Origin: Nitrosospira sp. NpAV
GTDB lineage: Bacteria > Pseudomonadota > Gammaproteobacteria > Burkholderiales > Nitrosomonadaceae
Length of the DNA stretch: 60,195 nt
Direction of reading: 5' to 3'
NCBI RefSeq assembly: GCF_000832065.1
Contig: NZ_JXQM01000004.1
Coordinates: 1-60,195 of the forward strand
Of this stretch, positions 9,218 through 39,441 are shown one piece after another. The position numbers were made by a program, and so were the translations under genes. The notes beneath the pieces were generated by a model, which searched no databases, was not told the origin of the DNA, and saw only the letters and a list, made by a program, of their open reading frames with translations. Each line of letters opens with the position of its first letter. Position 1 is the first letter of the stretch.

Positions 9218-11026
9218 TCAGAATGCCACGGCGATTGAAAAGTGCAGCCGCAGTTTGCCATCTCTCTGGCCTCGAGCGAGATCCAATGCCAGCGGCCCGA
9301 CCGGACTACGCCAGCGAATTCCGCCGCCATAACCCACGGCCAGATCCAGGCGATGCAGACCATCGGCGGCGTCCCCGGCATCGGCAAACACGGCGGCACC
9401 CCATTCGCGTGTGAGCCAGTGATTATACTCGATGGTGCCGCTAACCATCGCCGTGCCGCCCACGATGGCCTGGCCTTCCCGCACACCCAGACTTTGAAAG
9501 TCATAGCCGCGCACAGACTGTATGCCCCCGGCGCGGAACAAATATTCCTGCGGAATACCGAAGCGCGAATCGGTAAAAGTATATCCCGCCTCACCGCGCA
9601 AAAATAACACATCGCGTTTGCCAACAGGATACCAGTACTGATGGCGATAGTAAGTACGCACAAAACTCTGGTCAGACAACAATTGCTTGCTGCCGCCACC
9701 TATACGCATTTCTATCACGCTGCCATCGCGTGGAAACAATGCATCATCCACAGAGCGGTAGCGCAATTGTCCATCCAATACCAGCGTTTCGTTAGTCTGG
9801 CGCACCCCGCCTTTTGGGTCCCGGTCTTCCCGCTGCCAATTGAGCCCGATCCGGGTCTCGGTCTTCCCCACGAGCTGGTTACGGGTCACAGCCACTTTCT
9901 CACGCAGGGTTTCCAGGTCCTGAATGGAAGTTCGATCGATGCCCGCTCCCAGAGAAAACCAGCGCCCAGCCCGATTTGGCAGGCTATCCACCGCCATGGT
10001 CAGTGACTGACGTTTTTGCTCCAGACGCAAGACACTGCTCAACCGTAATGCCCTACCCAGAAAATTATGATTGCCGTAATTGATTTCGCCGCGCGCGCCA
10101 GTATTGGAGCTGTAGCCTCCCCCAAGCGATATGCGCTGCGACTGCGTTTCCGACACTGTCACCTCCACCGGTGCCGCTTGATGCGCCCCCACATCGGGTT
10201 CAACGCTGACCAGTGCCGAGCCGAATTGAGCCAGGTTCTGAAGTTTTGTCTGAAAAACTTGCAGCTGATCCCGCCGGTAAGGGTCGCCGGGTTTGAATGG
10301 GGCAAGATTATTGACCAGCTTCTGATCATAGCGATCAAGCCCCTTGATTATGATATTTCCATAATAAAAAACAGGTCCGGAATCCACGACTACCCGCAAC
10401 CGGACGCCGCCGGAGGCTGGGTCCACCTCGGCCTTGCTCTCATCAATCACCGCTGCGGCATAATCATCCCGCGATACACTGGATATTAATGCCGCTTTGG
10501 CCTCTTCCCATACCGGCGAGCGGAACGGATCACCCTTGTTCAGAGGCCATGCGGCTCGCAAACTTTGGATGCGGGCATGCCGCTCAGGCGCATCGCTTGC
10601 CAAATCTCCCTTGAATTCAATGCGGACTTCAGTAACCAATGCGCGCGGCCCCGGCGCAACCTCCAGCACCAGGTTCGCATCGGGGGTAGGCTGCAATGTT
10701 ATCGTGGGTGTGAAATAACCCTCGGTAGCGAGGAGTTCACTTATCTCCTGCCGTGCCCGGCGCAAGAAAGCAGCTCGAGCGATGTCATCCGCTATCGGTT
10801 CGGCCGGCAACTGGAAATAGGTCTTCAGCAAATCCCGCAATGATTCCGGGGCGGAAATGATGACCGGTGGCGAATTATTTCTGGCCTCGGATTGTTGCGG
10901 CTCATGCGCCTCGGCTGTACCACTTCCCAGCGTAAAAAAGATAAGACCCAGAAGGAGGGCTGATATCCCTGTTCGTGGTGAAAGGGCAGGTGAATTTTCC
11001 GAAAGACATGGCAAGGGAGGATTCAT
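9218..11026 (-). CDS. tamA: TamA, outer-membrane BamA-family protein
   Basis: About 602 residues from the preferred ATG at 11026. A signal peptide (GISALLLGLIFFTLGSGTAEA) is followed by POTRA domains (about residues 55-290) and a 16-strand Omp85 barrel. The barrel shows the diagnostic loop-6 motif in FRAGGIQSVRGYDFQSLG and ends in F (LHFSIAVAF), as expected for an outer-membrane beta-barrel signal. TamA cooperates with TamB in outer-membrane protein assembly. The frame extends to a TTG at 11104, but that would place 26 charged residues before the signal peptide. It is convergent with the TDT-type transporter gene rather than followed directly by tamB. Confidence 0.88.
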   Translation of the reverse strand: MNPPLPCLSENSPALSPRTGISALLLGLIFFTLGSGTAEAHEPQQSEARNNSPPVIISAPESLRDLLKTYFQLPAEPIADDIARAAFLRRARQEISELLATEGYFTPTITLQPTPDANLVLEVAPGPRALVTEVRIEFKGDLASDAPERHARIQSLRAAWPLNKGDPFRSPVWEEAKAALISSVSRDDYAAAVIDESKAEVDPASGGVRLRVVVDSGPVFYYGNIIIKGLDRYDQKLVNNLAPFKPGDPYRRDQLQVFQTKLQNLAQFGSALVSVEPDVGAHQAAPVEVTVSETQSQRISLGGGYSSNTGARGEINYGNHNFLGRALRLSSVLRLEQKRQSLTMAVDSLPNRAGRWFSLGAGIDRTSIQDLETLREKVAVTRNQLVGKTETRIGLNWQREDRDPKGGVRQTNETLVLDGQLRYRSVDDALFPRDGSVIEMRIGGGSKQLLSDQSFVRTYYRHQYWYPVGKRDVLFLRGEAGYTFTDSRFGIPQEYLFRAGGIQSVRGYDFQSLGVREGQAIVGGTAMVSGTIEYNHWLTREWGAAVFADAGDAADGLHRLDLAVGYGGGIRWRSPVGPLALDLARGQRDGKLRLHFSIAVAF

Positions 11027-27816: not shown

Positions 27817-28285
27817 CCTAAATTCCGCGGTTGGACGAGGTGACGTGGGCAGCTTCCGGGGTGGAAGGTAATACATTGCGAGCAATGCCGCCGGTACGGC
27901 TAAAACAGCGCAATCCACCCCGTGGCGAACTCACTATAAAGATGAAAATCGAGTGAGGTAAAGAGTCTTTGTGGATCATGGCGCCGAGCTTGAAAAATGA
28001 GTTAGAAACGCTTGACCGCCGCATTTAGGGTTATGGAGCACAGTCATAATTTTGAAACCGCAATGATACAGGAATGCCAAAATACCGCACGACTGTATCG
28101 AAAACTGCCTTGGAAGTCCTCAGCATCATACCTGGAAATCCCCTAATCCCTGGATTCAATTGCGTGTATTTGATAACACCGCGATTTTTATACTTTCTTT
28201 ACGTCCAACGATCATTTCTTTACAGGATCTTTAGGCGGTTCCTATTAATCTCCCCGTATTCAAAATAGCCTGCTCGGGGGCGACA
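27817..28285. other. Intergenic region between accA and the kdp operon
   Basis: 469 bases with divergent genes at both ends, so it carries the accA promoter (minus) and the kdp promoter (plus). The kdp control elements are at 28187-28248 (listed separately). A plus-strand frame at 28074-28268 reads as 64 residues but ends across the kdp promoter and looks non-coding. Confidence 0.5.
28187..28248 (+). promoter_or_regulatory. kdp promoter with KdpE-type operator boxes
   Basis: The 17-mer TTTATACTTTCTTTACG at 28187-28203 matches 15 of 17 bases of the E. coli KdpE operator as I recall it (TTTATACTTTTTTTACA). A weaker copy (11 of 17) lies at 28208-28224, 21 bases (two helical turns) further on. 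The second copy ends in TTTACA (28219-28224), a plausible -35 with an 18-base spacer to TATTAA (28243-28248), giving a start near 28255. This fits KdpE-activated transcription of the following kdp genes under K+ limitation. Box assignment is pattern matching; the regulatory role is inferred. Confidence 0.65.
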
Positions 28286-28378
28286 ATGGATCTTCTATAT
28301 ATTGGTGCAATCCTGGCGCTCCTGCTTGTGACCTGTGCGTTTGCCAGCGGCTGCGGCAAACTAGGCGAGCGGCAATGA
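28286..28378 (+). CDS. 30-residue membrane peptide upstream of kdpF
   Basis: ORF of 30 codons beginning [19 protein letters not shown] and ending GKLGERQ: one hydrophobic helix plus a short charged tail. Its stop codon overlaps the ATG of kdpF by 4 bases (ATGA), so it is translationally coupled to the kdp operon. It is not KdpF, which follows. Small hydrophobic ORFs at this place exist in other kdp operons but are usually left unannotated. Function is unknown; a helper of the Kdp complex is inferred. Confidence 0.6.
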
Positions 28379-28464
28379 ACACGTTTTATATTATTGGCGC
28401 GGTCGTCGCGGCTGGTCTATTAATATATCTGGTCATTGCCCTGATAAACGCCGAGGATTTGTAA
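28375..28464 (+). CDS. kdpF: KdpF, small subunit of the K+-transporting ATPase
   Basis: 29 residues: one membrane helix ending in the family signature ALINAEDL. KdpF stabilises the KdpFABC complex in the inner membrane. Its ATG overlaps the stop of the upstream 30-codon ORF, and the last base of its stop codon is the A of the kdpA ATG (TAATG), so the three are tightly coupled. Confidence 0.88.
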
Positions 28465-30272
28465 TGACTGCGCAATCTCTCCTTTTGCTTGGGGTGTTTC
28501 TCGCCACGCTGCTGGCGCTTGCTTATCCTTTGGGTACTTATCTGGCAAAGATCGGCGAGGGGAAGCCCATACATGGGCTGATGTGGATAAGAAAGATTGA
28601 AAACTTCTTATACCGCCTTGCCGGTATCTCGCCGGAATCGGAAATGGAGTGGAAAGTCTATGCATTGGCGCTGCTGGTATTCAATGCGCTGGGCGCGTTA
28701 ACCGTTTACGCAGTGCAACGCCTGCAAGCCTGGTTGCCGCTGAATCCACAGGCATTTGCCAACGTCAGTCCCGATTCGTCCTTCAATACCGCCATCAGCT
28801 TTACCACTAATACCAACTGGCAAGGTTACGGCGGCGAATCGACGATGAGCTACCTGACGCAAATGCTGGTGCTGACCGGACAGAATTTTTTGTCGGCCGC
28901 AACCGGCATGGCCGTCGCCTATGCACTGATCCGAGGCTTCAAACGCCACTCGGTAAAATCAATCGGTAATTTCTGGCATGACCTTACCCGTTCGACGCTC
29001 TATGTACTGCTACCGTTGTCAACATTATTTGCCGTGTTCCTGATCAGCCAGGGTGTGATCCAGAATTTTTCCGCATACAAGGAAGCAAGCCTGATTGAGC
29101 CCGTCACCTATCAGCAGGCTAAAACCAACTCGGACGGTCAACCAGTCAATGACGAAAAGGGCAATCCAATAATGGAATCCAAGATTGCCAAAACCCAAAT
29201 ACTGGCGATGGGGCCGGTCGCTTCACAGGAAGCCATCAAGCTGCTCGGCACGAATGGCGGTGGTTTTTTTAATGCGAACTCGGCGCATCCTTACGAAAAT
29301 CCAACGCCATTGTCGAATTTTGCCGAGATGCTGGCGATTCTGCTGATTCCCGCCGCACTGTGTTTTGCGTTTGGACGCATGGTCGGCGATATACGTCAGG
29401 GCTGGGCGGTATTAGGTGCGATGGCAACCATTTTTGCCGTGATGACGATTACCGTGCTGATCGCGGAGCAGCAGGCGCACCCAGAAGTGCAGGCGCTGGG
29501 CATTGATCAGACGGCTGGCCCGCTGCAATCCGGCGGCAACATGGAAGGCAAGGAAACACGCTTTGGCATCAGCACGTCAGCCCTGTTCGCAGCGGTCACC
29601 ACAGCGGCATCCTGCGGGGCGGTGAATGCGATGCACGATTCCTTGATGCCGCTCGGCGGCATGGTGCCTATGTTGCTGATGCAATTGGGCGAAGTGGTAT
29701 TCGGTGGAGTTGGGTCGGGTCTGTACGGCATGCTGATTTTTGCCATCATTGCCGTATTCATTGCCGGTTTGATGACTGGCCGCACACCCGAGTATCTGGG
29801 CAAGAAAATTCAGTCGTTTGAAATGAAAATGGCCTCGATTGCGATCCTTGTCACGCCGCTGTTGGTGTTGGGTGGGACTGCGTTAGCGGTCATGGTTGCA
29901 GCCGGCAAGACAGGTATCTTGAATGTCGGCGCACATGGCTTTTCCGAGATTTTGTATGCGCTGTCGTCGGCCGCCAATAATAACGGCAGCGCTTTTGCCG
30001 GCTTATCGGCCAACACACCGTTCTACAATGTCCTGCTGGCAACCGCGATGTGGTTTGGCCGCTTTACTCCCATCGTGACGGTACTGGCGATTGCGGGCTC
30101 GCTCGCCGGGAAGAAGCGTTTGGAGGTGACCGCGGGAACGATGCCAACGCATGGTCTCCTGTTTATCGCACTCCTGATCGGCACCGTCATCATGGTCGGT
30201 GTGCTGACCTACATTCCGGCCATTGCACTGGGACCGATAGCCGAGCATTTACAGCTTTATGTCACACCCTAA
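28464..30272 (+). CDS. kdpA: KdpA, K+-channel-like subunit of the K+-transporting ATPase
   Basis: 602 residues, about ten membrane helices arranged as in the K+ transporter superfamily. The selectivity-filter loops are visible: [45 protein letters not shown] and [13 protein letters not shown]. KdpA selects K+ and passes it to KdpB for active uptake. Length and motifs are normal. It directly abuts kdpF and precedes kdpB by 12 bases. Confidence 0.97.
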
Positions 30273-30284
30273 GAGAGATCCGGC

Positions 30285-32351
30285 ATGTCACGCAAAAGCC
30301 TGACACTTTTTGATTCCGCGTTGATTGGCCCGGCCATCATTGATGCATTCAAGAAACTGGACCCACGCATTCAATGGCGCAGTCCGGTGATGTTTGTCGT
30401 TTATATCGGCAGCATCATTACCACTTTGCTGTTCATGCAGTCGGCTGCCGGCAGTGGTGAGGAAAGCCCTGCTTTTATTCTCACCATTACGGTATGGCTG
30501 TGGTTCACGGTGCTGTTTGCAAATTTCGCCGAAGCATTGGCGGAAGGCCGCAGCAAGGCCCAGGCGGCTTCACTCCGTGCACTGAAGCAAACGGTCGTCG
30601 CCAAAAAACTGGACGCGCCACGCTATGGTGGCAGTTGGACATCGACGCCCGCCACCCGCCTGCGCAAGGACGATACCGTGCTGGTGGAAGCGGGCGAAAT
30701 AATTCCTGCCGATGGTGAAGTGATCGAGGGCGTTGCATCGGTTGATGAAAGCGCCATTACCGGCGAATCCGCGCCGGTTATCCGCGAATCGGGCGGCGAC
30801 TTTTCCGCCGTGACGGGCGGCACCCGTGTGCTGTCCGACTGGCTGGTGGTGCGCATATCCGTCAATCCGGGCGAGGCATTCATTGACCGCATGATCTCCA
30901 TGGTCGAAGCTGCCAAGCGGCAGAAAACACCCAACGAGGTCGCACTGAATATCCTGCTGACTGCATTAACTATCATTTTCCTGCTGGTGACGGTGACTCT
31001 GTTGCCATTCTCATTGTTTAGCGTAGAAGCCGCCCAGGCTGGCACACCGGTTACAATGACGATACTTATCGCGCTTTTGGTGTGCCTGATTCCGACCACG
31101 ATCGGCGGTTTGTTGTCCGCCATCGGCGTCGCGGGCATGAGCCGCATGATGCAAGCCAACGTCATCGCTACGTCCGGCCGCGCGGTGGAAGCCGCTGGCG
31201 ACGTAGATGTGCTGTTACTGGACAAAACCGGCACCATTACTCTCGGTAACCGGCAAGCGGCGGCATTCGTCCCGGCTCCGAATGTCACGGAGGAGCAATT
31301 GGCCGATGTCGCCCAACTGGCATCGCTGGCAGATGAAACACCGGAGGGGCGCAGCATCGTGGTGCTGGCGAAGCAGCGCTTCAACATTCGTGGACGTGAT
31401 ATGGCTTCCTTGAATGCCACTTTTGTTCCATTCAGCGCGCAGACTCGCATGAGCGGCGTGGATATCGGCGGTCGCGCCATCCGTAAGGGCGCCGCCGATT
31501 CGGTGAAAAAATACGTGGAATCACTGGGACATCCTTTCCCTTCTGAAATTACCAGGGCTGTGGGAGACATTGCGCGCCGCGGCAGCACGCCTCTGGTTGT
31601 GGTCGACGATGCTTGCGTAATGGGTGTGGTGGAACTCAAGGATATCGTCAAAGGCGGCATCAGGGAGCGCTTTGCCGAGCTGCGCCGTATGGGCATCAAA
31701 ACCATAATGATTACCGGCGACAACAAACTGACCGCCGCGGCGATCGCGGCCGAGGCGGGAGTCGATGATTTCCTGGCGGAAGCGACGCCGGAAGACAAAC
31801 TCAAGCTGATTCGAGCTTATCAAACCGAGGGACGCCTGGTTGCAATGACGGGTGATGGCACCAATGATGCGCCCGCGCTGGCGCAGGCCGATGTCGCGGT
31901 CGCGATGAATTCCGGCACACAAGCGGCGAAAGAGGCAGGCAACATGGTCGATCTCGATTCCAATCCGACCAAATTGCTTGAAATCGTCGAGATCGGCAAG
32001 CAGATGCTGATGACACGCGGTGCGTTATCCACATTCTCGATAGCCAACGATGCCGCCAAGTATTTCGCCATCATTCCCGCCGCCTTCGTCACCACTTATC
32101 CGCAACTGGCGGCACTCGACGTGATGCGTCTTGCCAGTCCCTCATCGGCAATCATTTCTGCCGTGATTTTCAACGCGCTGATCATCGTGATATTGATTCC
32201 GCTGGCATTGAAAGGCGTGAAATACCGTGCTATTGGTGCCGCGCTGCTGCTGCGCCGCAATCTGCTCATATATGGGCTGGGCGGCATTCTGGTGCCTTTT
32301 GCCGGAATCAAGGCAATCGACATGGTGCTGACTGTTCTCCATCTCGTGTAG
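30285..32351 (+). CDS. kdpB: KdpB, P-type ATPase subunit
   Basis: 688 residues with seven membrane helices. Catalytic motifs: TGES in the actuator domain ([11 protein letters not shown]), the phosphorylated Asp in DKTGTITLG (about residue 312), and the hinge motif [12 protein letters not shown]. It hydrolyses ATP and drives the K+ held by KdpA inward. The start is the ATG at 30285; normal length. Confidence 0.97.
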
Positions 32352-32360
32352 GAACTTTGA

Positions 32361-32933
32361 ATGAAATCCAGCCTCCGTCCCGCATTAGTACTGCTCACCG
32401 CGCTGACACTCGTTTGTGGTGTACTGTACCCGTTCGCAATTACCGGTATCGGGAAAATCCTTTTCGCTGATAAGGCGGCGGGCAGTCTGATATTGCACGA
32501 TGGCCAGCTTGCCGGCTCCACGCTGATCGGTCAGGCGTTTTCATCCCCTGGCTATTTCCGGGGAAGGCCTTCGGCCACCAGCCCGATGCCGAATAACGCC
32601 GCATCCTCCGGTGGGTCGAATCTCGGTCCATCCAATCCCGTGCAAATCGATACCATAAGAAACCGTATCGACGCACTGAAAGTGGCCGATCCTGGCAATA
32701 CCGCACCGCTTCCCGTTGACCTGGTAATGGCCTCCGCAAGCGGACTGGACCCGGAAATCAGTCTGGCGGCTGCTTACTATCAAGCAGGCCGGATTGCGCG
32801 GGTGCGTAAACTGACTGTCGAAGAAATACACGGCATGATTGATAGATATAGCGAACCACCGTATTTTGGTTTCCTTGGCGAGCCGCGCGTAAATGTGCTG
32901 ATGCTGAATCTGGCGCTTGATCAACGCCCTTGA
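32361..32933 (+). CDS. kdpC: KdpC subunit of the K+-transporting ATPase
   Basis: 190 residues: one N-terminal membrane helix (ALVLLTALTLVCGVLYPFAI) and a periplasmic domain with GSTLIGQAFSSPGYFRGRPS and ASGLDPEISLAAAYYQ, all typical for KdpC, which helps ATP binding and complex assembly. It follows kdpB by 9 bases. After its stop comes a 117-base gap before kdpD with a short ORF (32936-33064). Confidence 0.96.
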   Translation: MKSSLRPALVLLTALTLVCGVLYPFAITGIGKILFADKAAGSLILHDGQLAGSTLIGQAFSSPGYFRGRPSATSPMPNNAASSGGSNLGPSNPVQIDTIRNRIDALKVADPGNTAPLPVDLVMASASGLDPEISLAAAYYQAGRIARVRKLTVEEIHGMIDRYSEPPYFGFLGEPRVNVLMLNLALDQRP

Positions 32934-32935
32934 TC

Positions 32936-33064
32936 ATGCTTATGTCATATATATTCGAATTGAATAAATTGTGGGATGAACGCGATGCGACCACGCTCTT
33001 CATTATCTCGTTGTTGGTCGATTCGATAGGTAAAGCCCCTACCTCCGACCATGTGCCCATTTAA
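32936..33064 (+). CDS. Possible 42-codon ORF between kdpC and kdpD
   Basis: Starts with ATG 2 bases after the kdpC stop and ends 14 bases inside kdpD in another frame. The peptide (MLMSYIFELNKLWDERDATT, then a hydrophobic FIISLLVDSIGKAP) has no recognised family and no good ribosome binding site. It could be a leader that couples kdpD translation to kdpC, or chance. Weakly supported. Confidence 0.25.
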   Translation: MLMSYIFELNKLWDERDATTLFIISLLVDSIGKAPTSDHVPI

Positions 33065-35879
33065 CCACCGGCGCGACCCCCAACGCCCCAACGCGGATGC
33101 CCTCTTGGCACAAGTGCAGGCACAGGAGCGCCGTGCGTCGCGTGGAAAACTTCGCGTTTATTTCGGTGCTTCGGCGGGAGTCGGCAAAACCTATGCGATG
33201 CTGACCGCCGCGCGGCAATTGCAAACTGAAGGCCACGACGTAGTAGTCGGAGTGGTCGAATCACATGGTCGTGATGAAACCGCATCGCTTGTCAATGGGC
33301 TTGAGATTCTGCCGCAGAAACAAATCACCCACCGCGGCAGAACAATCACCGAATTTGATATCGATGCTGCGCTGACGCGTCGTCCCGCCTTGGTACTCGT
33401 AGACGAATTGGCGCATACCAATGCGCCTGATTCGCGTCACCCGAAACGTTGGCAGGATGTCGAAGAGTTACTGGATGCGGGCATCGACGTATTTACAACC
33501 GTCAATGTTCAGCACCTGGAGAGCTTGAATGACGTGGTTGGCGGAATCACCGGCATTCGCGTGGGGGAGACTCTGCCTGATACTGTGTTTGATGAAGCCA
33601 ATGAAGTCGTGCTGGTGGATATTACAGCGGATGAGCTGCTGATGCGGCTCAAGGCCGGAAAAGTTTATCAGGCGCAACAGGCGGGACGCGCGGCGCAAAA
33701 TTTTTTCCGTAAAGGCAACCTGATCGCATTGCGCGAGCTGGCGCTACGCCGCACCGCCGATCGAGTCGAAGATGATGTACAGGCATATCGAATTGAGAAA
33801 TCCATCAACGCAGTATGGAAGACGGATTCAACCCTGCTTGCCTGCGTTGGGCCGCATCCGGGTGCCGAGCATGTGATTCGAAGTACGGCACGGCTGGCTA
33901 CTCAATTGAATGCCGACTGGCACGCGATTTATGTTGAAACGCCGCAGCTGCAACATCTGCCGCCAGCACAACGCGAACGAATCCTGAAGACACTGAAGCT
34001 TGCACAGGATCTTGACGCCACCACGGCGGTGCTGGCCGGGAACGACATTGCGTTTGCGATAGCCGACTATGCGCGGAGTCATAATTTCTCGAATATCATA
34101 GTAGGACGCAGCCACCGCGCCTGGTTCTGGCGCACCTCCCATCTAAAACGCATCGCCGACTATGCGCCGGATATGGATTTGATAGAAATCGGCCATACGA
34201 ATCAGGAAGAACCCCCGGTTCCAGAAAGATCGAACGATGCGGGCGTATCCCGGCCTGCCAAAGTGAAGGAGCCCTCCGCTTCACAGCGTCGCCCTGCGCC
34301 CCAGTGGAGTTATGTCTGGGCAGCGGCAGCCAGCCTGTTAACAGCGCTCGTCGCCATGCCGCTGTTGCCCCACCTGGATCTCGCCAATATCATCATGTTT
34401 TTTTTGCTGACAGTGGTATTGGTTGCCGTGTGGTTAGGGCGTGGACCGTCGGTGGTTGCCACGTTCGTGGGGGTCGTAGCATTCGACTTCTTTTTTGTAC
34501 CGCCGCGACTTTCGTTTGCTGTCAGCGATCTGCAATACCTGGTGACATTTGCGATAATGCTTGCAGTGGGCTTGATTACCGGCCACCTTACCGCTAATTT
34601 GCGGTATCAGGCTCGCGTCGCATCGCATCGAGAGTCTCGTTCCCGCGCCTTGTATGAATTCGCGCGCGAATTGTCCGGCGCATTGCAGACTGATCAAATA
34701 TTCGAAACCACGCGTACGTTTATTCAGCGCACTTTCCACGCACAGGCGACATTATTACTGCCGGATGATGCGGACCATTTACAACCGCCGCCATCTGTGC
34801 CGGGTGTGACACCTGAAGACCCGCACACCCATGCACTGGATATGGGAATTGCGCAATGGGCATTTGATCATGCGATACCGGCAGGTATCGGCACCGATAC
34901 GCTTCCTGGCGGCAGTTTCTTCTATCTACCGCTGGTCGCACCGATGCGCACCCGCGGCCTGCTTGCAATCCTCCCGCAGAGCCGCCGCTGGATGCTCATC
35001 CCCGAGCAGCGGCGGCAGCTTGATACCTTTGCCGCATTGGCGGCGATTGCGCTGGAGCGGGTGCATTATATCGAAATCGCCAAGAATGCCCTGATACGCA
35101 TGGAATCCGAACGGCTGCGCAACTCTTTACTCGCCGCGCTCTCGCATGACTTGCGCACGCCGCTGACCTCGCTGGTAGGACTGTCAGACTCGCTCGCGAT
35201 GTCCAGACCGCCGCTGGCTCCGCCGCAACGGGAACTTGCGGAGGCCATGCGTGATGAGGCCGTTCGAATGAGTAATCTGGTATCAAACCTGCTGGATATG
35301 GCGCGCATTCAGAGTGGAGAGGTCCGACTCAATTTGCAATGGCAGCCCTTTGAAGAAGTCGTCGGTAGCGCATTGCATGTCAGCCGCTCGCAGCTCACCG
35401 GGCATCAGGTACAAACCCGGCTCGCCCGCGATTTGCCGCTTGTTCACTTCGATGCTGTACTGATCGAACGGGTGCTGTGTAATCTCATTGAAAATGCGAG
35501 TAAATACACGCCGGCGGGTTCGTGCATCATTATTGCCGCCGAAGTGAAAGCGCAATTTCTCGAAGTGACTGTTTCCGATAACGGGCCTGGGCTGCCGCAT
35601 GGCAAGGAAGAAGCAGTTTTTGAGAAATTTACGCGCGGAGAACGAGAATCGGCCAAGCCTGGTGTCGGCCTGGGACTCGCGATTTGCCGTGCCATCGTCG
35701 AGGCGCATGGCGGCACTATTCATGCCGAACGTGCATCGATTGGCGGAGCCTCTTTCGTATTTACTCTCCTGCTCGGTACGCCTCCAGATATGCCCAAAAT
35801 GGATGTGGGCACCGTCGGTCTGGCGAATGAGGGGGTCGCATCAGGTTACGCTGTGCTAACCCCGCCTACGGAACGTTGA
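33051..35879 (+). CDS. kdpD: KdpD, K+-sensing histidine kinase
   Basis: 942 residues with the classical KdpD order: N-terminal KdpD domain with Walker A GASAGVGKT (39-47) and DELAHTNAPDSRHPKRWQD, a universal-stress-type domain (about 250-370), four membrane helices (about 420-520), a GAF-like region, and a histidine kinase core with the H-box ALSHDLRTPLTSL (His about 699), N-box LCNLIENASKYTP and G-box GPGLPHG, GVGLGLAI. It phosphorylates KdpE when K+ is scarce. The start ATG has only a weak ribosome binding site and lies within the short ORF from kdpC. kdpE follows 16 bases downstream. Confidence 0.95.
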   Translation: MCPFNHRRDPQRPNADALLAQVQAQERRASRGKLRVYFGASAGVGKTYAMLTAARQLQTEGHDVVVGVVESHGRDETASLVNGLEILPQKQITHRGRTITEFDIDAALTRRPALVLVDELAHTNAPDSRHPKRWQDVEELLDAGIDVFTTVNVQHLESLNDVVGGITGIRVGETLPDTVFDEANEVVLVDITADELLMRLKAGKVYQAQQAGRAAQNFFRKGNLIALRELALRRTADRVEDDVQAYRIEKSINAVWKTDSTLLACVGPHPGAEHVIRSTARLATQLNADWHAIYVETPQLQHLPPAQRERILKTLKLAQDLDATTAVLAGNDIAFAIADYARSHNFSNIIVGRSHRAWFWRTSHLKRIADYAPDMDLIEIGHTNQEEPPVPERSNDAGVSRPAKVKEPSASQRRPAPQWSYVWAAAASLLTALVAMPLLPHLDLANIIMFFLLTVVLVAVWLGRGPSVVATFVGVVAFDFFFVPPRLSFAVSDLQYLVTFAIMLAVGLITGHLTANLRYQARVASHRESRSRALYEFARELSGALQTDQIFETTRTFIQRTFHAQATLLLPDDADHLQPPPSVPGVTPEDPHTHALDMGIAQWAFDHAIPAGIGTDTLPGGSFFYLPLVAPMRTRGLLAILPQSRRWMLIPEQRRQLDTFAALAAIALERVHYIEIAKNALIRMESERLRNSLLAALSHDLRTPLTSLVGLSDSLAMSRPPLAPPQRELAEAMRDEAVRMSNLVSNLLDMARIQSGEVRLNLQWQPFEEVVGSALHVSRSQLTGHQVQTRLARDLPLVHFDAVLIERVLCNLIENASKYTPAGSCIIIAAEVKAQFLEVTVSDNGPGLPHGKEEAVFEKFTRGERESAKPGVGLGLAICRAIVEAHGGTIHAERASIGGASFVFTLLLGTPPDMPKMDVGTVGLANEGVASGYAVLTPPTER

Positions 35880-35895
35880 AACCATAGAGGCGCTC

Positions 35896-36597
35896 ATGAG
35901 TGAATCCGTGCCCATTGCTCTAATAGTCGAAGATGAGCCGCAAATCCGGCGTTTCGTGCGCATGGCGCTGGAGACGGAAGGATGGCAAGTCTTCGAATCA
36001 GAATCCGTCCGGCGGGGACTCATTGATGCGGGGACCCGCAAACCGGATCTCGTAATATTGGATCTCGGCCTGCCTGACGGGGATGGGGTCGATTTCATCC
36101 TGGACATCAGAAAATGGTCATCGATTCCTATCATCGTTTTGTCGGCGCGCGTCAATGAGCAGGATAAGATCAGAGCGCTTGATGCCGGGGCTGACGACTA
36201 CCTTACCAAACCGTTCGGCGTCGGCGAACTCCTTGCGCGGGTACGCGTCATGCAGCGGCGGAACCTCCAGCCTGGCGCTGGCGACCAGGGGATCTGTGAG
36301 TTTGGAGATGTCAGGATCGATCTCAAGGCACGCCTGATCACCAAGGCCAATCAAGTGATTCACTTGACGCCGTTGGAATATCGGCTGCTGACGGTGTTGG
36401 TGAAAAACGCAGGCCGGGTGGTGACCAGCCCGCAACTTCTGCGGGCAGTCTGGGGACCTTCGCACTCGGAAAGCGGTCACTATCTGCGCATCTATATGGG
36501 GCATTTGCGGCAAAAACTCGAAGACGATCCCACGCAACCCAAATATCTTCAAACCGAAACCGCCGTGGGCTACCGATTACTTCTGCCTCTGGAATGA
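35896..36597 (+). CDS. kdpE: KdpE, response regulator of the kdp operon
   Basis: 233 residues: receiver domain with acidic pocket (EDEP), phospho-acceptor Asp in VILDLGLPDGDG and conserved Lys in DYLTKPFGVGELLAR, then an OmpR-type winged-helix DNA-binding domain (LTPLEYRLLTVLVKNAG, GHYLRIYMGHLRQKLE). It activates kdp transcription; matching operator boxes occur before kdp, before the PII-like gene and before the porin gene in this window. Ribosome binding site GAGG precedes the ATG. Confidence 0.95.
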   Translation: MSESVPIALIVEDEPQIRRFVRMALETEGWQVFESESVRRGLIDAGTRKPDLVILDLGLPDGDGVDFILDIRKWSSIPIIVLSARVNEQDKIRALDAGADDYLTKPFGVGELLARVRVMQRRNLQPGAGDQGICEFGDVRIDLKARLITKANQVIHLTPLEYRLLTVLVKNAGRVVTSPQLLRAVWGPSHSESGHYLRIYMGHLRQKLEDDPTQPKYLQTETAVGYRLLLPLE

Positions 36598-36669
36598 GCG
36601 CTCCCATAAAATCGGGTACCCTAGACCAAATTAATAAAGCATAACCTGGTCAATGTCCGATCAACCATT

Positions 36670-36729
36670 TTTATGATTTTTTTACAATCGGCAGTTGTTT
36701 ATTTACTACGTTTTTATGCTGTTTCTTCT
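36670..36729 (+). promoter_or_regulatory. Pair of KdpE-type boxes before the PII-like gene
   Basis: Two T-rich boxes 43 bases apart (start to start). TTTATGATTTTTTTACA at 36670-36686 matches 15 of 17 bases of the E. coli KdpE operator; TTTATGCTGTTTCTTCT at 36713-36729 is weaker. The stretch 36667-36735 aligns without gaps to 39309-39377 upstream of the porin gene (47 of 69 bases identical by my count), so both promoters seem to share one control element. No standard -35/-10 pair is obvious, as expected for an activator-dependent promoter. Confidence 0.55.
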
Positions 36730-36776
36730 AGCATTTGATTCAGGCTCTGCTGAGCTTGTTTGATAAGGAGAATCGC

Positions 36777-37064
36777 ATGAAACGCATCATCATTGTGGTG
36801 AGCGCATCGGAAATGAAGGCGGTACGTAAAGCGGTTTTTATCGCAGGCGCGAATAGACTAGTGATTAGCCCGGTGCCACAGCGAACATGTATCATAGAAT
36901 TTGGCGACTGGTATTGTGGGACGTCCATAGCCAAGCGTGAAAGTCATATGCAATTGGAGGTGACTTCCGATGATAGCCGGTCTGACGCCATAATTTCCGC
37001 CATTCTTTCGACCGCGCATGCCGCGAAGATCGAGAATATATTTACCGGAAGTGTTTTACCATGA
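36777..37064 (+). CDS. PII-like regulatory protein with shortened T-loop
   Basis: 95 residues from the ATG at 36777, which has GGAG 8-12 bases upstream; the frame is open to 36735. The sequence follows the PII fold: first strand and helix KRIIIVVSASEMKAVRKAVFIAG, second strand RLVISPVP, then a short loop instead of the long T-loop, strand HMQLEVTSDD, helix AIISAILSTAH and final IENIFTGSVL. The uridylylation Tyr of GlnB/GlnK and the glycine-rich B-loop are missing, so it is a divergent PII-like protein, not GlnB. Similar small PII-like proteins control transporters for bicarbonate and other ions in other bacteria. Its place behind kdpE and the KdpE-type boxes suggest a role in K+ uptake; that is inference. 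Confidence 0.6.
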   Translation: MKRIIIVVSASEMKAVRKAVFIAGANRLVISPVPQRTCIIEFGDWYCGTSIAKRESHMQLEVTSDDSRSDAIISAILSTAHAAKIENIFTGSVLP

Positions 37065-37524
37065 CTCATCTATATTTTAGGGGTTGGATTTGTCTTTTTA
37101 CCTTTGTACTGCCTGTGGACGGATCCTCCCCTTTGCCTTCGGTGGATATAAAGACTAGGTTGACCTATCACTCGATTTCATGTTGCCGTGCTGATGGAGT
37201 TCGGGCGCGACTAAACCGAATTTACAGCAAACGTGGGACTTGACCCTATATCCCTCCCCTGCCTTGAATGAGGCAAGGGATAACAGTTCTTATCTACATC
37301 ATTGCCCGATATGCGGAAAAGCGCATCAAGTCAATCTTGTACGCCACAATATGGCCTACGGAAAGCAAATAACCTGTAGCTTTACGTGTGAATTACAAAG
37401 AAGGAAAAAGTGGAAATGGCATGGAAACAAAGTTCGGTAGTTGCATGGTTCCGTGGTTCCATAGACTAGATTGTGCATAGTGTAGCCCAGCCAAGAACAA
37501 TCCAGTATTCTCAACAAGTCAGGA
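37065..37524. other. Region with no clear complete gene; remnant zinc-finger ORF
   Basis: 460 bases between the PII-like gene and the CorA-like gene. A 60-codon frame (37061-37243) overlaps the stop of the PII-like gene by ATGA but does not read like a protein. A frame at 37240-37440 contains a plausible zinc-binding segment and is listed as a possible remnant. No terminator was recognised after the PII-like gene. Confidence 0.4.
37240..37440 (+). pseudogene. Possible remnant of an HNH/zinc-finger-type protein
   Basis: 66 codons with only a TTG to start it and no ribosome binding site. The peptide has HCPICGKAHQVNLVRH, AYGKQITCSFTCELQRR: a C-x2-C ... C-x3-C arrangement like the zinc knuckle at one end of HNH endonucleases and related phage or mobile proteins. 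The rest of such a protein is absent. It may be a fragment left by an old insertion, or a small zinc protein whose start I cannot define. Confidence 0.35.
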
Positions 37525-39201
37525 ATGAGAATGAATGCCACGGAACCGCTTCAATTACCAAACGTCGAAAAATTCAGGGAAATCGTGCTTTGGCCAGTGC
37601 AGCTGTTGCCGCGCCATGAAAGCACAGAGATTCAGAACCATTGGGAATGTCTGAGCGCGACAAGCGCCGATTCTGTATGGAATGAAGTGGCGGACGAGTT
37701 CAGCGTCGATCCAGCCGAGTTCAAAGAAAGGCATTACAAGGAATTTGTAACTTTCCTGCCCTTCGTACAGCGCTTTTTGTATGGTGAGGGCGGTGGCAGT
37801 GATGGCGATGGAAGGTTCGGGCGCTCGCCAATTCACGTATTTCGTCGCAACGATGTTGCGCAAGCGCGAATTACTCTCCCCGGCGACCCCCTGCCCGCAA
37901 CTTTCGATGTGGCACATGTCGATCTGTACTTCTTCTATGACATAGATATTGCCATCCTGGTCATGGAAATAATAGGCGAAAAACTTTCGCTACGACGCGC
38001 GCTTGATACCTTGTACCGCTTCGGACGGGCTTATCCGACACATTGGGAGCCGAGTGGCCGCGGCGGGCACTGCGCAGAGCACGTTGAGTGGCTCTCGCAT
38101 AGCGGTGCCGTGCTTGCTGTGTCGGACTATGAAAAGAAAGCGCGCTACCTGCGGTTTGTCGGTGAACATCGGGCACCATGCGTGGCGTCCCATTGGGAGT
38201 TTCTGATGGAACCGCTGGTGCTCGACCACTCGCAGCGGGAAGGGAGCGTCCGCTATCGGGAAATCGAATATCAACGTATGCCGCTGATGAGTTTTCTGGC
38301 GTTGGACGAAAAAGACCGGCTGACTCGTGGCGATCTCGTGCGGCTCGGATTGGTTACGCGCCCAGGCGACGCGCGGACGCTGCCATTTTCGGAACAATTT
38401 CTGGAGGATTTCGAGCGGCGCTACTGCTACGATCGCTACTGGGAAGAGGCGCAAGAACATGACTTCAGCAATACGCGCCTGCTCTCCAACGGCCATGATT
38501 TCACGATGATAGGCGAAGCACGTGAACCTTTCTTTACGGATACGGAAAGCGGCATGCTGGGTCAGTTCCGTCATCAGTACTTTCTGCTCTTTCTGATCAC
38601 GCATTTCCACAAAGCCGCATTGTTGATGCTCTCCAACCGGCTCGTTGCCGAACTCAGCCGGCTCGATATCCGCCGGCCCGATTCGGTACGTGTCTTCAGG
38701 CGCGACGTAAAACATGTCACCGAGATTTTCTTGCGCTTTACTAATCGCTACTGGTTTCATGAAGTATCCGACCAGGCTCAGGCCCACGATGTTTTTACCA
38801 TGATGAGAAACCACCTCGGTACAGACGAATTGTACAAGCGTACGCGGCTGCGTATTCTGGATATGAATGATTACCTGGAAAGAGACCAGCTAAGGCGTCA
38901 ATCCGATGCCGTGGTACGGTTGACCGTGGTGACCACGTTCGGCCTGATCGGTACCGTGACGACCGGTTTCCTGGGAATGAATCTGATCGCTGCCGCCGAT
39001 AATACGCTCGGCACCAAGCTGATCTATTTTATGCTGATATTCGTTCCAGCTGTCGCGCTGACAGTCTACACGGTGGTGAAATCAAAACGGCTGGCCGAGT
39101 TTCTCGAAGCGCTTTCCGATGAGCGGCTGACCAAGCGAGATAAGCTGAATACTCTGTTCACTATCTGGAAAAAAGAACGGCGCGCTTCGCGGCATGCATG
39201 A
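37525..39201 (+). CDS. CorA-like divalent cation channel with long N-terminal domain
   Basis: 558 residues. The C-terminus holds two membrane helices; the first (VVRLTVVTTFGLIGTVTTGF) ends in LGMNL with GMN at residues 484-486, the selectivity motif of CorA channels for Mg2+, Co2+ and related ions. The second helix follows (LIYFMLIFVPAVALTVYTVV) and the protein ends in a basic tail. The cytoplasmic part (about 1-455) is much longer than in E. coli CorA (about 316 residues total) and is otherwise unrecognised. Start: ATG 37525 or the ATG at 37531, which is better spaced from AGGA. It sits between the PII-like gene and the porin in the K+ region. Confidence 0.75.
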   Translation: MRMNATEPLQLPNVEKFREIVLWPVQLLPRHESTEIQNHWECLSATSADSVWNEVADEFSVDPAEFKERHYKEFVTFLPFVQRFLYGEGGGSDGDGRFGRSPIHVFRRNDVAQARITLPGDPLPATFDVAHVDLYFFYDIDIAILVMEIIGEKLSLRRALDTLYRFGRAYPTHWEPSGRGGHCAEHVEWLSHSGAVLAVSDYEKKARYLRFVGEHRAPCVASHWEFLMEPLVLDHSQREGSVRYREIEYQRMPLMSFLALDEKDRLTRGDLVRLGLVTRPGDARTLPFSEQFLEDFERRYCYDRYWEEAQEHDFSNTRLLSNGHDFTMIGEAREPFFTDTESGMLGQFRHQYFLLFLITHFHKAALLMLSNRLVAELSRLDIRRPDSVRVFRRDVKHVTEIFLRFTNRYWFHEVSDQAQAHDVFTMMRNHLGTDELYKRTRLRILDMNDYLERDQLRRQSDAVVRLTVVTTFGLIGTVTTGFLGMNLIAAADNTLGTKLIYFMLIFVPAVALTVYTVVKSKRLAEFLEALSDERLTKRDKLNTLFTIWKKERRASRHA

Positions 39202-39311
39202 CTCAAGCCGAATTCCACGATTGAATAATATTTGCCCTGGGAGAACCCATACCCTAACCCGTATGAAGAAGCAAGCTCCTATCGGATGCACACAAAAGGC
39301 CGCAAACGATT

Positions 39312-39371
39312 TTTACGGATTTTTTATAGCAATTCACTGATTATTTATAATATTTTTATACTTTTTCTTCT
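39312..39371 (+). promoter_or_regulatory. Pair of KdpE-type boxes before the porin gene
   Basis: TTTATACTTTTTCTTCT at 39355-39371 matches 14 of 17 bases of the E. coli KdpE operator, including twelve in a row; a weaker copy (12 of 17) lies at 39312-39328, again 43 bases upstream, the same spacing as in front of the PII-like gene. The whole region 39309-39377 aligns without gaps to 36667-36735. Possible -10 elements are TATACT (39357) or TAATAT (39371); I cannot choose between them. Confidence 0.55.
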
Positions 39372-39441
39372 AATATTCAGTAACTTATAACTGATAAACA
39401 TGCTTCCCAAGCCCGGCTTGCCGGAGGCGTAGAAGATAAAG

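Follow-up and report, generated by a model that had tools for sequence, protein, structure and literature searches.

Two promoters with a KdpE-type two-site layout, upstream of a PII-like gene and a BBP2 porin gene, suggest a K+-limitation regulon beyond kdp in Nitrosospira and Nitrosomonas

Analysis of a window of 60,195 bases, which represents an entire contig of a 3.45-Mb genome and most likely originates from an ammonia-oxidising bacterium, revealed two stretches, one upstream of a gene for a small PII-like protein (36667-36735) and one upstream of a gene for a BBP2-type outer-membrane porin (39309-39377), which are very probably promoters activated by KdpE. Together with the kdp genes, both genes would make up a small K+-limitation regulon in Nitrosospira and Nitrosomonas. 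All three promoters have one layout in common, which is unique to them in this genome and conserved together with kdp. Since this layout precedes kdp and two more genes, the response to K+ starvation probably exceeds the pump. The regulator is already known, while the proposed targets and the two-site layout are new.

The genes follow each other in the order kdpA-kdpB-kdpC-kdpD-kdpE (28464-36597), PII-like gene, CorA-like gene, and BBP2 porin gene (Table 1). Alignment of the deduced KdpE to 4kny (chain numbering offset by 2 according to our own count) revealed that the equivalents of R193, R200, and T215 are identical to those in E. coli KdpE, where these residues are required for DNA binding and induction (PMC3264566). 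A cognate KdpE with conserved DNA-contact residues is present in the same genome as the candidate promoters.

Table 1. Candidate promoter elements and genes of the kdp region (positions in the window)
Feature	Positions	Strand	Details
kdp promoter element	28184..28251	+	half-sites 28185-28191, 28196-28202, 28217-28223, 28228-28234; -10 TAATCT 28246-28251
PII-like gene promoter element, candidate site 1	36667..36734	+	half-sites 36668-36674, 36679-36685
PII-like gene promoter element, candidate site 2 and -10		+	half-sites 36700-36706, 36711-36717; TAGCAT 36729-36734
BBP2 porin promoter element, candidate site 1	39309..39376	+	half-sites 39310-39316, 39321-39327
BBP2 porin promoter element, candidate site 2 and -10		+	half-sites 39342-39348, 39353-39359; TAATAT 39371-39376
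kdpA, kdpB, kdpC (K+ pump)	28464..32933	+	PF03814 (kdpA), PF02669 (kdpC)
kdpD, sensor kinase	33051..35879	+	NF007793 KdpD equivalog above cut-off
kdpE, presumed activator	35896..36597	+	NF007820 KdpE equivalog above cut-off
PII-like small protein gene, 95 aa	36777..37064	+	weak PF00543 match
CorA-like membrane protein gene, between both candidate new targets	37525..39201	+	weak PF01544 match; no own element
BBP2-type outer-membrane porin gene, 364 aa	39442..40536	+	PF07642, E 6.5e-104

Layout of the promoter element

The element consists of four half-sites TTTTTAY at offsets 1, 12, 33, and 44 (spacing of 11/21/11), followed by TANNNT at offset 62, and can be read as two candidate KdpE dimer sites (TTTTTAY-N4-TTTTTAY) lying 32 bp apart, with a -10 region at a fixed distance. 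A direct repeat of TTTAYA-type half-sites with a period of 11 bp, as KdpE half-sites are defined in PMC3264566, was found in all candidate promoters. Measured against a pattern of four TTTAY half-sites with 11/21/11 spacing, the PII-like and porin promoters showed 0 mismatches and the kdp promoter of this genome, organized in the same way, showed 1.

The CorA-like gene was considered as a third new target and rejected, as its upstream region carries no element; the best same-strand site score there was 9/14 in the window, and 8-10 of 14 in the loci of eight relatives. This gene may be transcribed from the PII-like promoter, or from the kdp promoter where it directly follows kdpE.

Identity of the two stretches

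The two stretches, 2.6 kb apart, align without gaps and are identical at 47 of 69 positions; on recount, the coordinates, the alignment, and the number given by an earlier sequence-only reading of this DNA were all exact. Dinucleotide shuffling of both intergenic regions (AT content of 62% and 61%) resulted in best ungapped 69-base matches with a mean of 32.1 (standard deviation 1.6, maximum 41), and 0 of 2000 shuffles reached at least 47. When the two 69-mers were shuffled in register, the maximum was 40 (0/20000 at 47 or more). Since the shuffle maximum lies well below 47, AT-richness does not explain the match.

The identity is concentrated in the half-sites (27/30) and in the -10 stretch (14/18), whereas the spacers agree at only 6/21 positions, a distribution expected of binding sites but not of a recent copy. 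Thus, a recent duplication of one promoter stretch, by which the similarity would be due to descent and a shared regulator unnecessary, is extremely improbable in spite of the short distance and the gapless 47/69 identity, because the spacers diverge and the conservation crosses genera: both elements occur separately in Nitrosomonas, within a different gene arrangement.

With respect to the boxes proposed by the sequence-only reading, the 17-base E. coli KdpE site indeed matches 15/17 positions at 36670 and 14/17 at 39355. The reported distance of 43 bases between paired boxes is real as the distance from half-site 1 to half-site 4 (11+21+11), but the spacing of the dimer sites is 32 bp. The boxes at 39355 and 36713 had to be given up as KdpE dimer sites, as they are out of register, each combining the last half-site with the beginning of the -10 region. 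The second candidate dimer site starts at 36700 in the PII-like promoter and at 39342 in the porin promoter, in both cases further upstream by 11 bp.

Specificity within the genome

A search of the 3.45-Mb genome with the four-half-site pattern, using the reversed pattern as control, resulted in 8 places at up to 3 mismatches (control: 6). The PII-like and porin promoters were the only places with 0 mismatches and the kdp promoter the only one with 1; none had 2, and five had 3. At a maximum of 1 mismatch, there were thus three places only, each on the coding strand and a short distance ahead of kdp, the PII-like gene, or the porin gene, compared to 0 for the reversed pattern.

The single 17-base E. 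coli box behaved differently, which counts against KdpE-dependent promoters: at up to 3 mismatches, it was found 12 times genome-wide versus 15 times for the reversed control. It was therefore rejected as a genome-wide test, not being specific alone, and the motif-background check proposed along with the sequence-only reading turned out in two ways, with the single T-rich box being common and the paired layout specific. Specificity arises from the paired layout and not from the single box. The best matches of the latter, and the only ones at 2 mismatches, were those of the kdp and PII-like promoters, and 4 of the 12 lay within the window. Three of the eight matches outside were inspected and judged to be due to chance, one located at the start region of an open reading frame (ORF; L061) and the other two close to ORFs (L012 and L007) without an obvious role in K+ handling. 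The L061 match, which also is a 3-mismatch match of the four-half-site pattern, belongs to an ORF that we take to be hemB.

That the boxes are chance T-rich or UP-element-like tracts in AT-rich intergenic DNA would agree with the behaviour of the single box, which is no commoner than its control. Given that 0/2000 shuffles matched the observed identity, that in this genome only these promoters carry the paired pattern with 1 mismatch or less, and that the element is conserved across genera, this explanation has next to no probability and is already refuted.

Comparison with the E. coli kdp promoter

The KdpE site of E. coli is described as TTTATA-N5-TTTACA with an 11-bp period, within a 23-bp element at -72 to -50 (PMC3264566). 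The promoters of the window resemble the E. coli kdpFABC promoter in their half-sites and in the 11-bp period, but while one site is described for the latter in that source, the window displays two stronger sites as well as two extra candidate target genes. Inspection of the E. coli kdp promoter revealed a weaker second pair (TTTTTGC-GAAA-TCTTTGC) exactly at +32, and TTCTACCCT in the -10 register. When this promoter served as the sole template, with 47 positions scored, the kdp promoter reached 34, the PII-like promoter 34, and the porin promoter 30, which were the three top places on either strand of the window. A score of 26 was obtained in a shifted register within the porin element, while no unrelated place exceeded 25 (mean 11.4, standard deviation 3.0). 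Tests with this template and with the 17-base E. coli site are more independent than the fit to the four-half-site pattern.

Conservation in the family

Searches of 125 genomes of the family revealed the PII-like protein in 7, the CorA-like protein in 9, and the porin in 27; 17 of the genomes yielded a KdpE match with an E value of at most 1e-50. In a scan of the genomes of 84,980 species, which was seeded by the pattern and hence not exhaustive, the PII-like protein was found at 4 loci, all from Nitrosospira or Nitrosomonas; the named related contigs include one of N. oligotropha Nm75 (L088), which carries the PII-like gene.

All seven PII-like promoters of the family carry the element at no more than 1 mismatch, and it is conserved in Nitrosospira and Nitrosomonas while the flanks diverge. 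In Nitrosomonas, the PII-like gene is inverted relative to kdp and the element is retained. In five of the seven genomes, the PII-like gene neighbours a kdp cluster; in G051 its neighbour is a kdpE fragment, and in G108 it is kup. In G051 (L024), a kdpE fragment of 129 residues lies beside the CorA-like, PII-like, and porin genes, and both promoters keep the element; no match to kdpA-kdpD was found upstream within the stretch examined. In G108, the PII-like gene resides on a 13-kb contig without kdp and has a 0-mismatch element; it is flanked there (L087:5777-10073) by genes for a putative Na+/H+ antiporter (PF07399) and a Kup K+ transporter (PF02705).

A scan of the family at up to 1 mismatch revealed 22 matches in 12 of the 125 genomes compared to 13 for the control (our own tally). 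Eighteen of them lie at kdp, PII-like, or porin promoters (two overlapping at one promoter), including all 10 zero-mismatch matches, which are found at PII-like or porin promoters; the other four are located elsewhere (G024 contig 51, G026, G030, and G050). In a further 23 promoters that the full pattern had not picked, which come from related species and are not independent, half-site 3 scored at least 4/5 in 19 and half-site 4 in all 23, and TANNNT was present at offset 62 in 18; of the five promoters lacking it there, four are kdp promoters of Nitrosomonas and one is the G103 porin promoter. Not included in this set are the kdp promoters of L048, L050, and L054, which scored as lacking the element, those of L022, L023, L026, and L045, whose upstream DNA was cut off, and five promoters picked by the pattern. 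Based on the paired-site genome search, the conservation in two genera, the persistence on a contig without kdp, and the lack of the element at two second porin copies and at the majority of porins from genomes with no close KdpE, the prediction of the sequence-only reading that a KdpE regulon extends beyond kdp is strongly supported at the sequence level.

Porin promoters

For the comparison of porin promoters, 28 of 30 rows were used, as two rows of G003 (broken fragments) were dropped; the shuffles applied here preserve base composition only. The porins of all eight genomes with kdp genes, namely G000, G100, G103, G108, G024, G037, and G065 (KdpE match) and G051 (kdpE fragment only), carry the element at 0-2 mismatches, seven of them at 0 and G103 at 2. 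Porins of 17 genomes without a KdpE match showed 2 mismatches in one case, 4 in four cases, and 6-10 in the other twelve. G065 and G108 each have a second porin copy, for which 8 and 9 mismatches, respectively, were counted.

Assessment of the KdpE regulon

Besides the unspecific single box, several points weigh against the regulon. The four-half-site pattern was derived from these promoters and their relatives, so that its fit is partly by construction, and the scoring of the E. coli +32 pair was chosen after the window layout was known. Of the 17 genomes with a KdpE match, nine lack any place with 1 mismatch or less. Four of these are Nitrosomonas genomes in which the third half-site of the kdp promoter is poor, and three have a kdp operon with a divergent kdpA (L048, L050, and L054) that revealed no element by score. 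The other two are G112, in which the KdpE-like protein is only 46% identical, and G103, which is weaker and has a degraded site 2 in its porin promoter. As to the other porins, that of G112 showed 5 mismatches, the two KdpE-like proteins of this genome being 46% and 44% identical; that of G004, a genome with no KdpE match, showed 2 mismatches (0/300 shuffles as good); and those of G099, G005, G007, and G008 showed 4 (1-2% of shuffles as good). The match in G004 (C1, L117) lies at -187, compared to about -130 elsewhere, which suggests chance or another regulator.

In G005, G007, and G008, which belong to the same genus as G004, the 4-mismatch places are found at the same distance as in G004. 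In G103 (L046), there is a remnant of a PII-type promoter between kdpE and the porin gene (about 10610-10700), and no PII-like or CorA-like gene was detected in the stretch examined or in the family protein searches.

Some of these points would fit another regulator of the OmpR/PhoB family, with an 11-bp T-rich direct repeat as its target, that binds the new promoters while KdpE serves kdp only. Direct-repeat half-sites are general in this family according to PMC3264566, and matches without a close KdpE exist in G026, G030, and G050, as does the 2-mismatch porin of G004. We consider such a regulator very unlikely, as layout and spacing are common to all three promoters and E. coli kdp. Furthermore, matches with no more than 1 mismatch occur in 12 family genomes, of which 8 also possess a KdpE match and one (G051) the kdpE fragment, and the matches of the remaining three genomes are not at kdp, PII-like, or porin promoters.

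Occurrence outside the family

A zero-mismatch scan of 369 genomes of the class resulted in 9 matches in 7 genomes, with no control match among the matches listed. Two of the nine are the window's own; those in G192 and G370 were found at kdp promoters, and those in G192 and G323, which represent one genus of another family of the class, just downstream of kdpE. For the matches in G357, G221, and G178, none of ten query proteins was found in the short loci examined, and no link to kdp was seen.

At two loci, L098:12668-12715 and L097:1223-1270, a KdpE-type two-site promoter directly follows kdpE. In L098 (G323), the element precedes a frame of 131 aa without a Pfam match, while in L097 no clear gene follows. 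Judging from these sequences, a KdpE-type promoter that follows kdpE and drives another gene may not be confined to this family.

Proposed mechanism

Binding, activation, start points, and the roles of both proteins are inferred. K+ limitation, the presumed signal, would lead to phosphorylation of KdpE by KdpD, and two dimers of KdpE~P would bind head to tail on the same face of the DNA. Site 1 would serve as an anchor at a distance of about 70 bp ahead of the predicted start point. Site 2 lies downstream of site 1 by exactly 32 bp, which corresponds to about three turns, and would replace the -35 hexamer.

Promoters with pho boxes, which are controlled by PhoB, likewise have direct-repeat dimer sites in place of the -35 region and close to the -10 region, and differ from the promoters of the window in half-site sequence and regulator. 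Since site 2 ends 11 bp before the TANNNT -10 region, KdpE would contact RNA polymerase like PhoB does; going by the spacing and this analogy, site 2 would lie beside the polymerase, and a class II-like activation is the most likely mechanism.

In this way, kdpFABCDE, the PII-like gene, and the BBP2 porin gene would be under one switch, by which low K+ would induce the pump, the porin, and the PII-type protein together. The porin would raise the permeability of the outer membrane to K+ and is a likely entry path for this ion, while the PII-like protein may bind and regulate a K+ transporter and thereby tune the transport of K+ (or of K+ and NH4+).

A broader generalization can be offered tentatively, and we regard it as somewhat doubtful. 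According to it, KdpE-activated promoters, including that of E. coli, would generally possess a tandem of dimer sites spaced by 32 bp, with the second in place of the -35 region, and in ammonia oxidisers, for which ammonium is food and a look-alike of K+, the switch would also command a dedicated K+ porin and a PII-like protein adjusting K+ transport (so far found in Nitrosospira and Nitrosomonas only).

Relation to known systems

In E. coli, kdpFABC has been called the sole target of KdpE, to which adeP, uxaA, and uxaC were added via ChIP-exo (chromatin immunoprecipitation with exonuclease treatment) and expression data (PMC7657598). The activation of kdp by KdpE under K+ limitation is common to that system and the regulon proposed here, whereas no porin or PII-like gene is among the targets described there. 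The kdpFABC operon of M. smegmatis is KdpE-activated as well and induced by low K+ and by high Na+ or NH4+; it differs in a single 22-bp KdpE sequence at the kdpF promoter, which is of the SigF type (PMC5401905). Kdp systems of both E. coli and M. smegmatis are described as responding to high NH4+ besides low K+ (PMC5401905), a response that may matter in ammonia oxidisers. Nitrosomonas sp. Is79 carries kdpABC with kdpD and kdpE, and the main text of the report on it never mentions a porin (PMC3764937). Among the titles and abstract openings listed in searches of open-licence literature, none reported this regulon or a second KdpE site in E. coli.

A base-level grammar of four half-sites with 11/21/11 spacing and a -10 region in fixed register would make the KdpE regulon readable from genomes. 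It predicts that ammonia-oxidising bacteria respond to low K+ by turning on a PII-like protein and a porin of the outer membrane, suggests a second candidate KdpE site in the textbook kdp promoter of E. coli, and may open a way into the connection between the handling of K+ and of ammonium in nitrifiers.

Neighbouring genes and minor observations

Within the kdp operon, kdpB was named by its position between kdpA and kdpC, and kdpF was read by eye at 28375-28464. The PF00543 match of the PII-like protein (21.5 bits) lies below the curated Pfam cut-off of 25, and that of the CorA-like protein to PF01544 (19.7 bits) below the cut-off of 27; therefore, both are called only 'PII-like' and 'CorA-like'. 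For the former, an NCBIfam scan and a plasmid search resulted in no match, a profile search revealed PII structures only with E values of 0.07 to 0.8, on a par with unrelated chains, and the AlphaFold2 model, based on 7 sequences, had a mean pLDDT of 60.1 and was too weak to use. The porin reached 348.3 bits (residues 31-364), exceeding the curated cut-off of PF07642 (BBP2).

An orthologue of the CorA-like protein (84% identical) is encoded at G111:C18:36837-38498 (L134), in a genome without a KdpE (1e-50) or PII-like match. Between the kdp promoter and kdpF, there is a reading frame of 30 codons (28286-28378), which overlaps the start of kdpF; its start is kept in L021 and L046, and it perhaps encodes a leader or a small membrane peptide.

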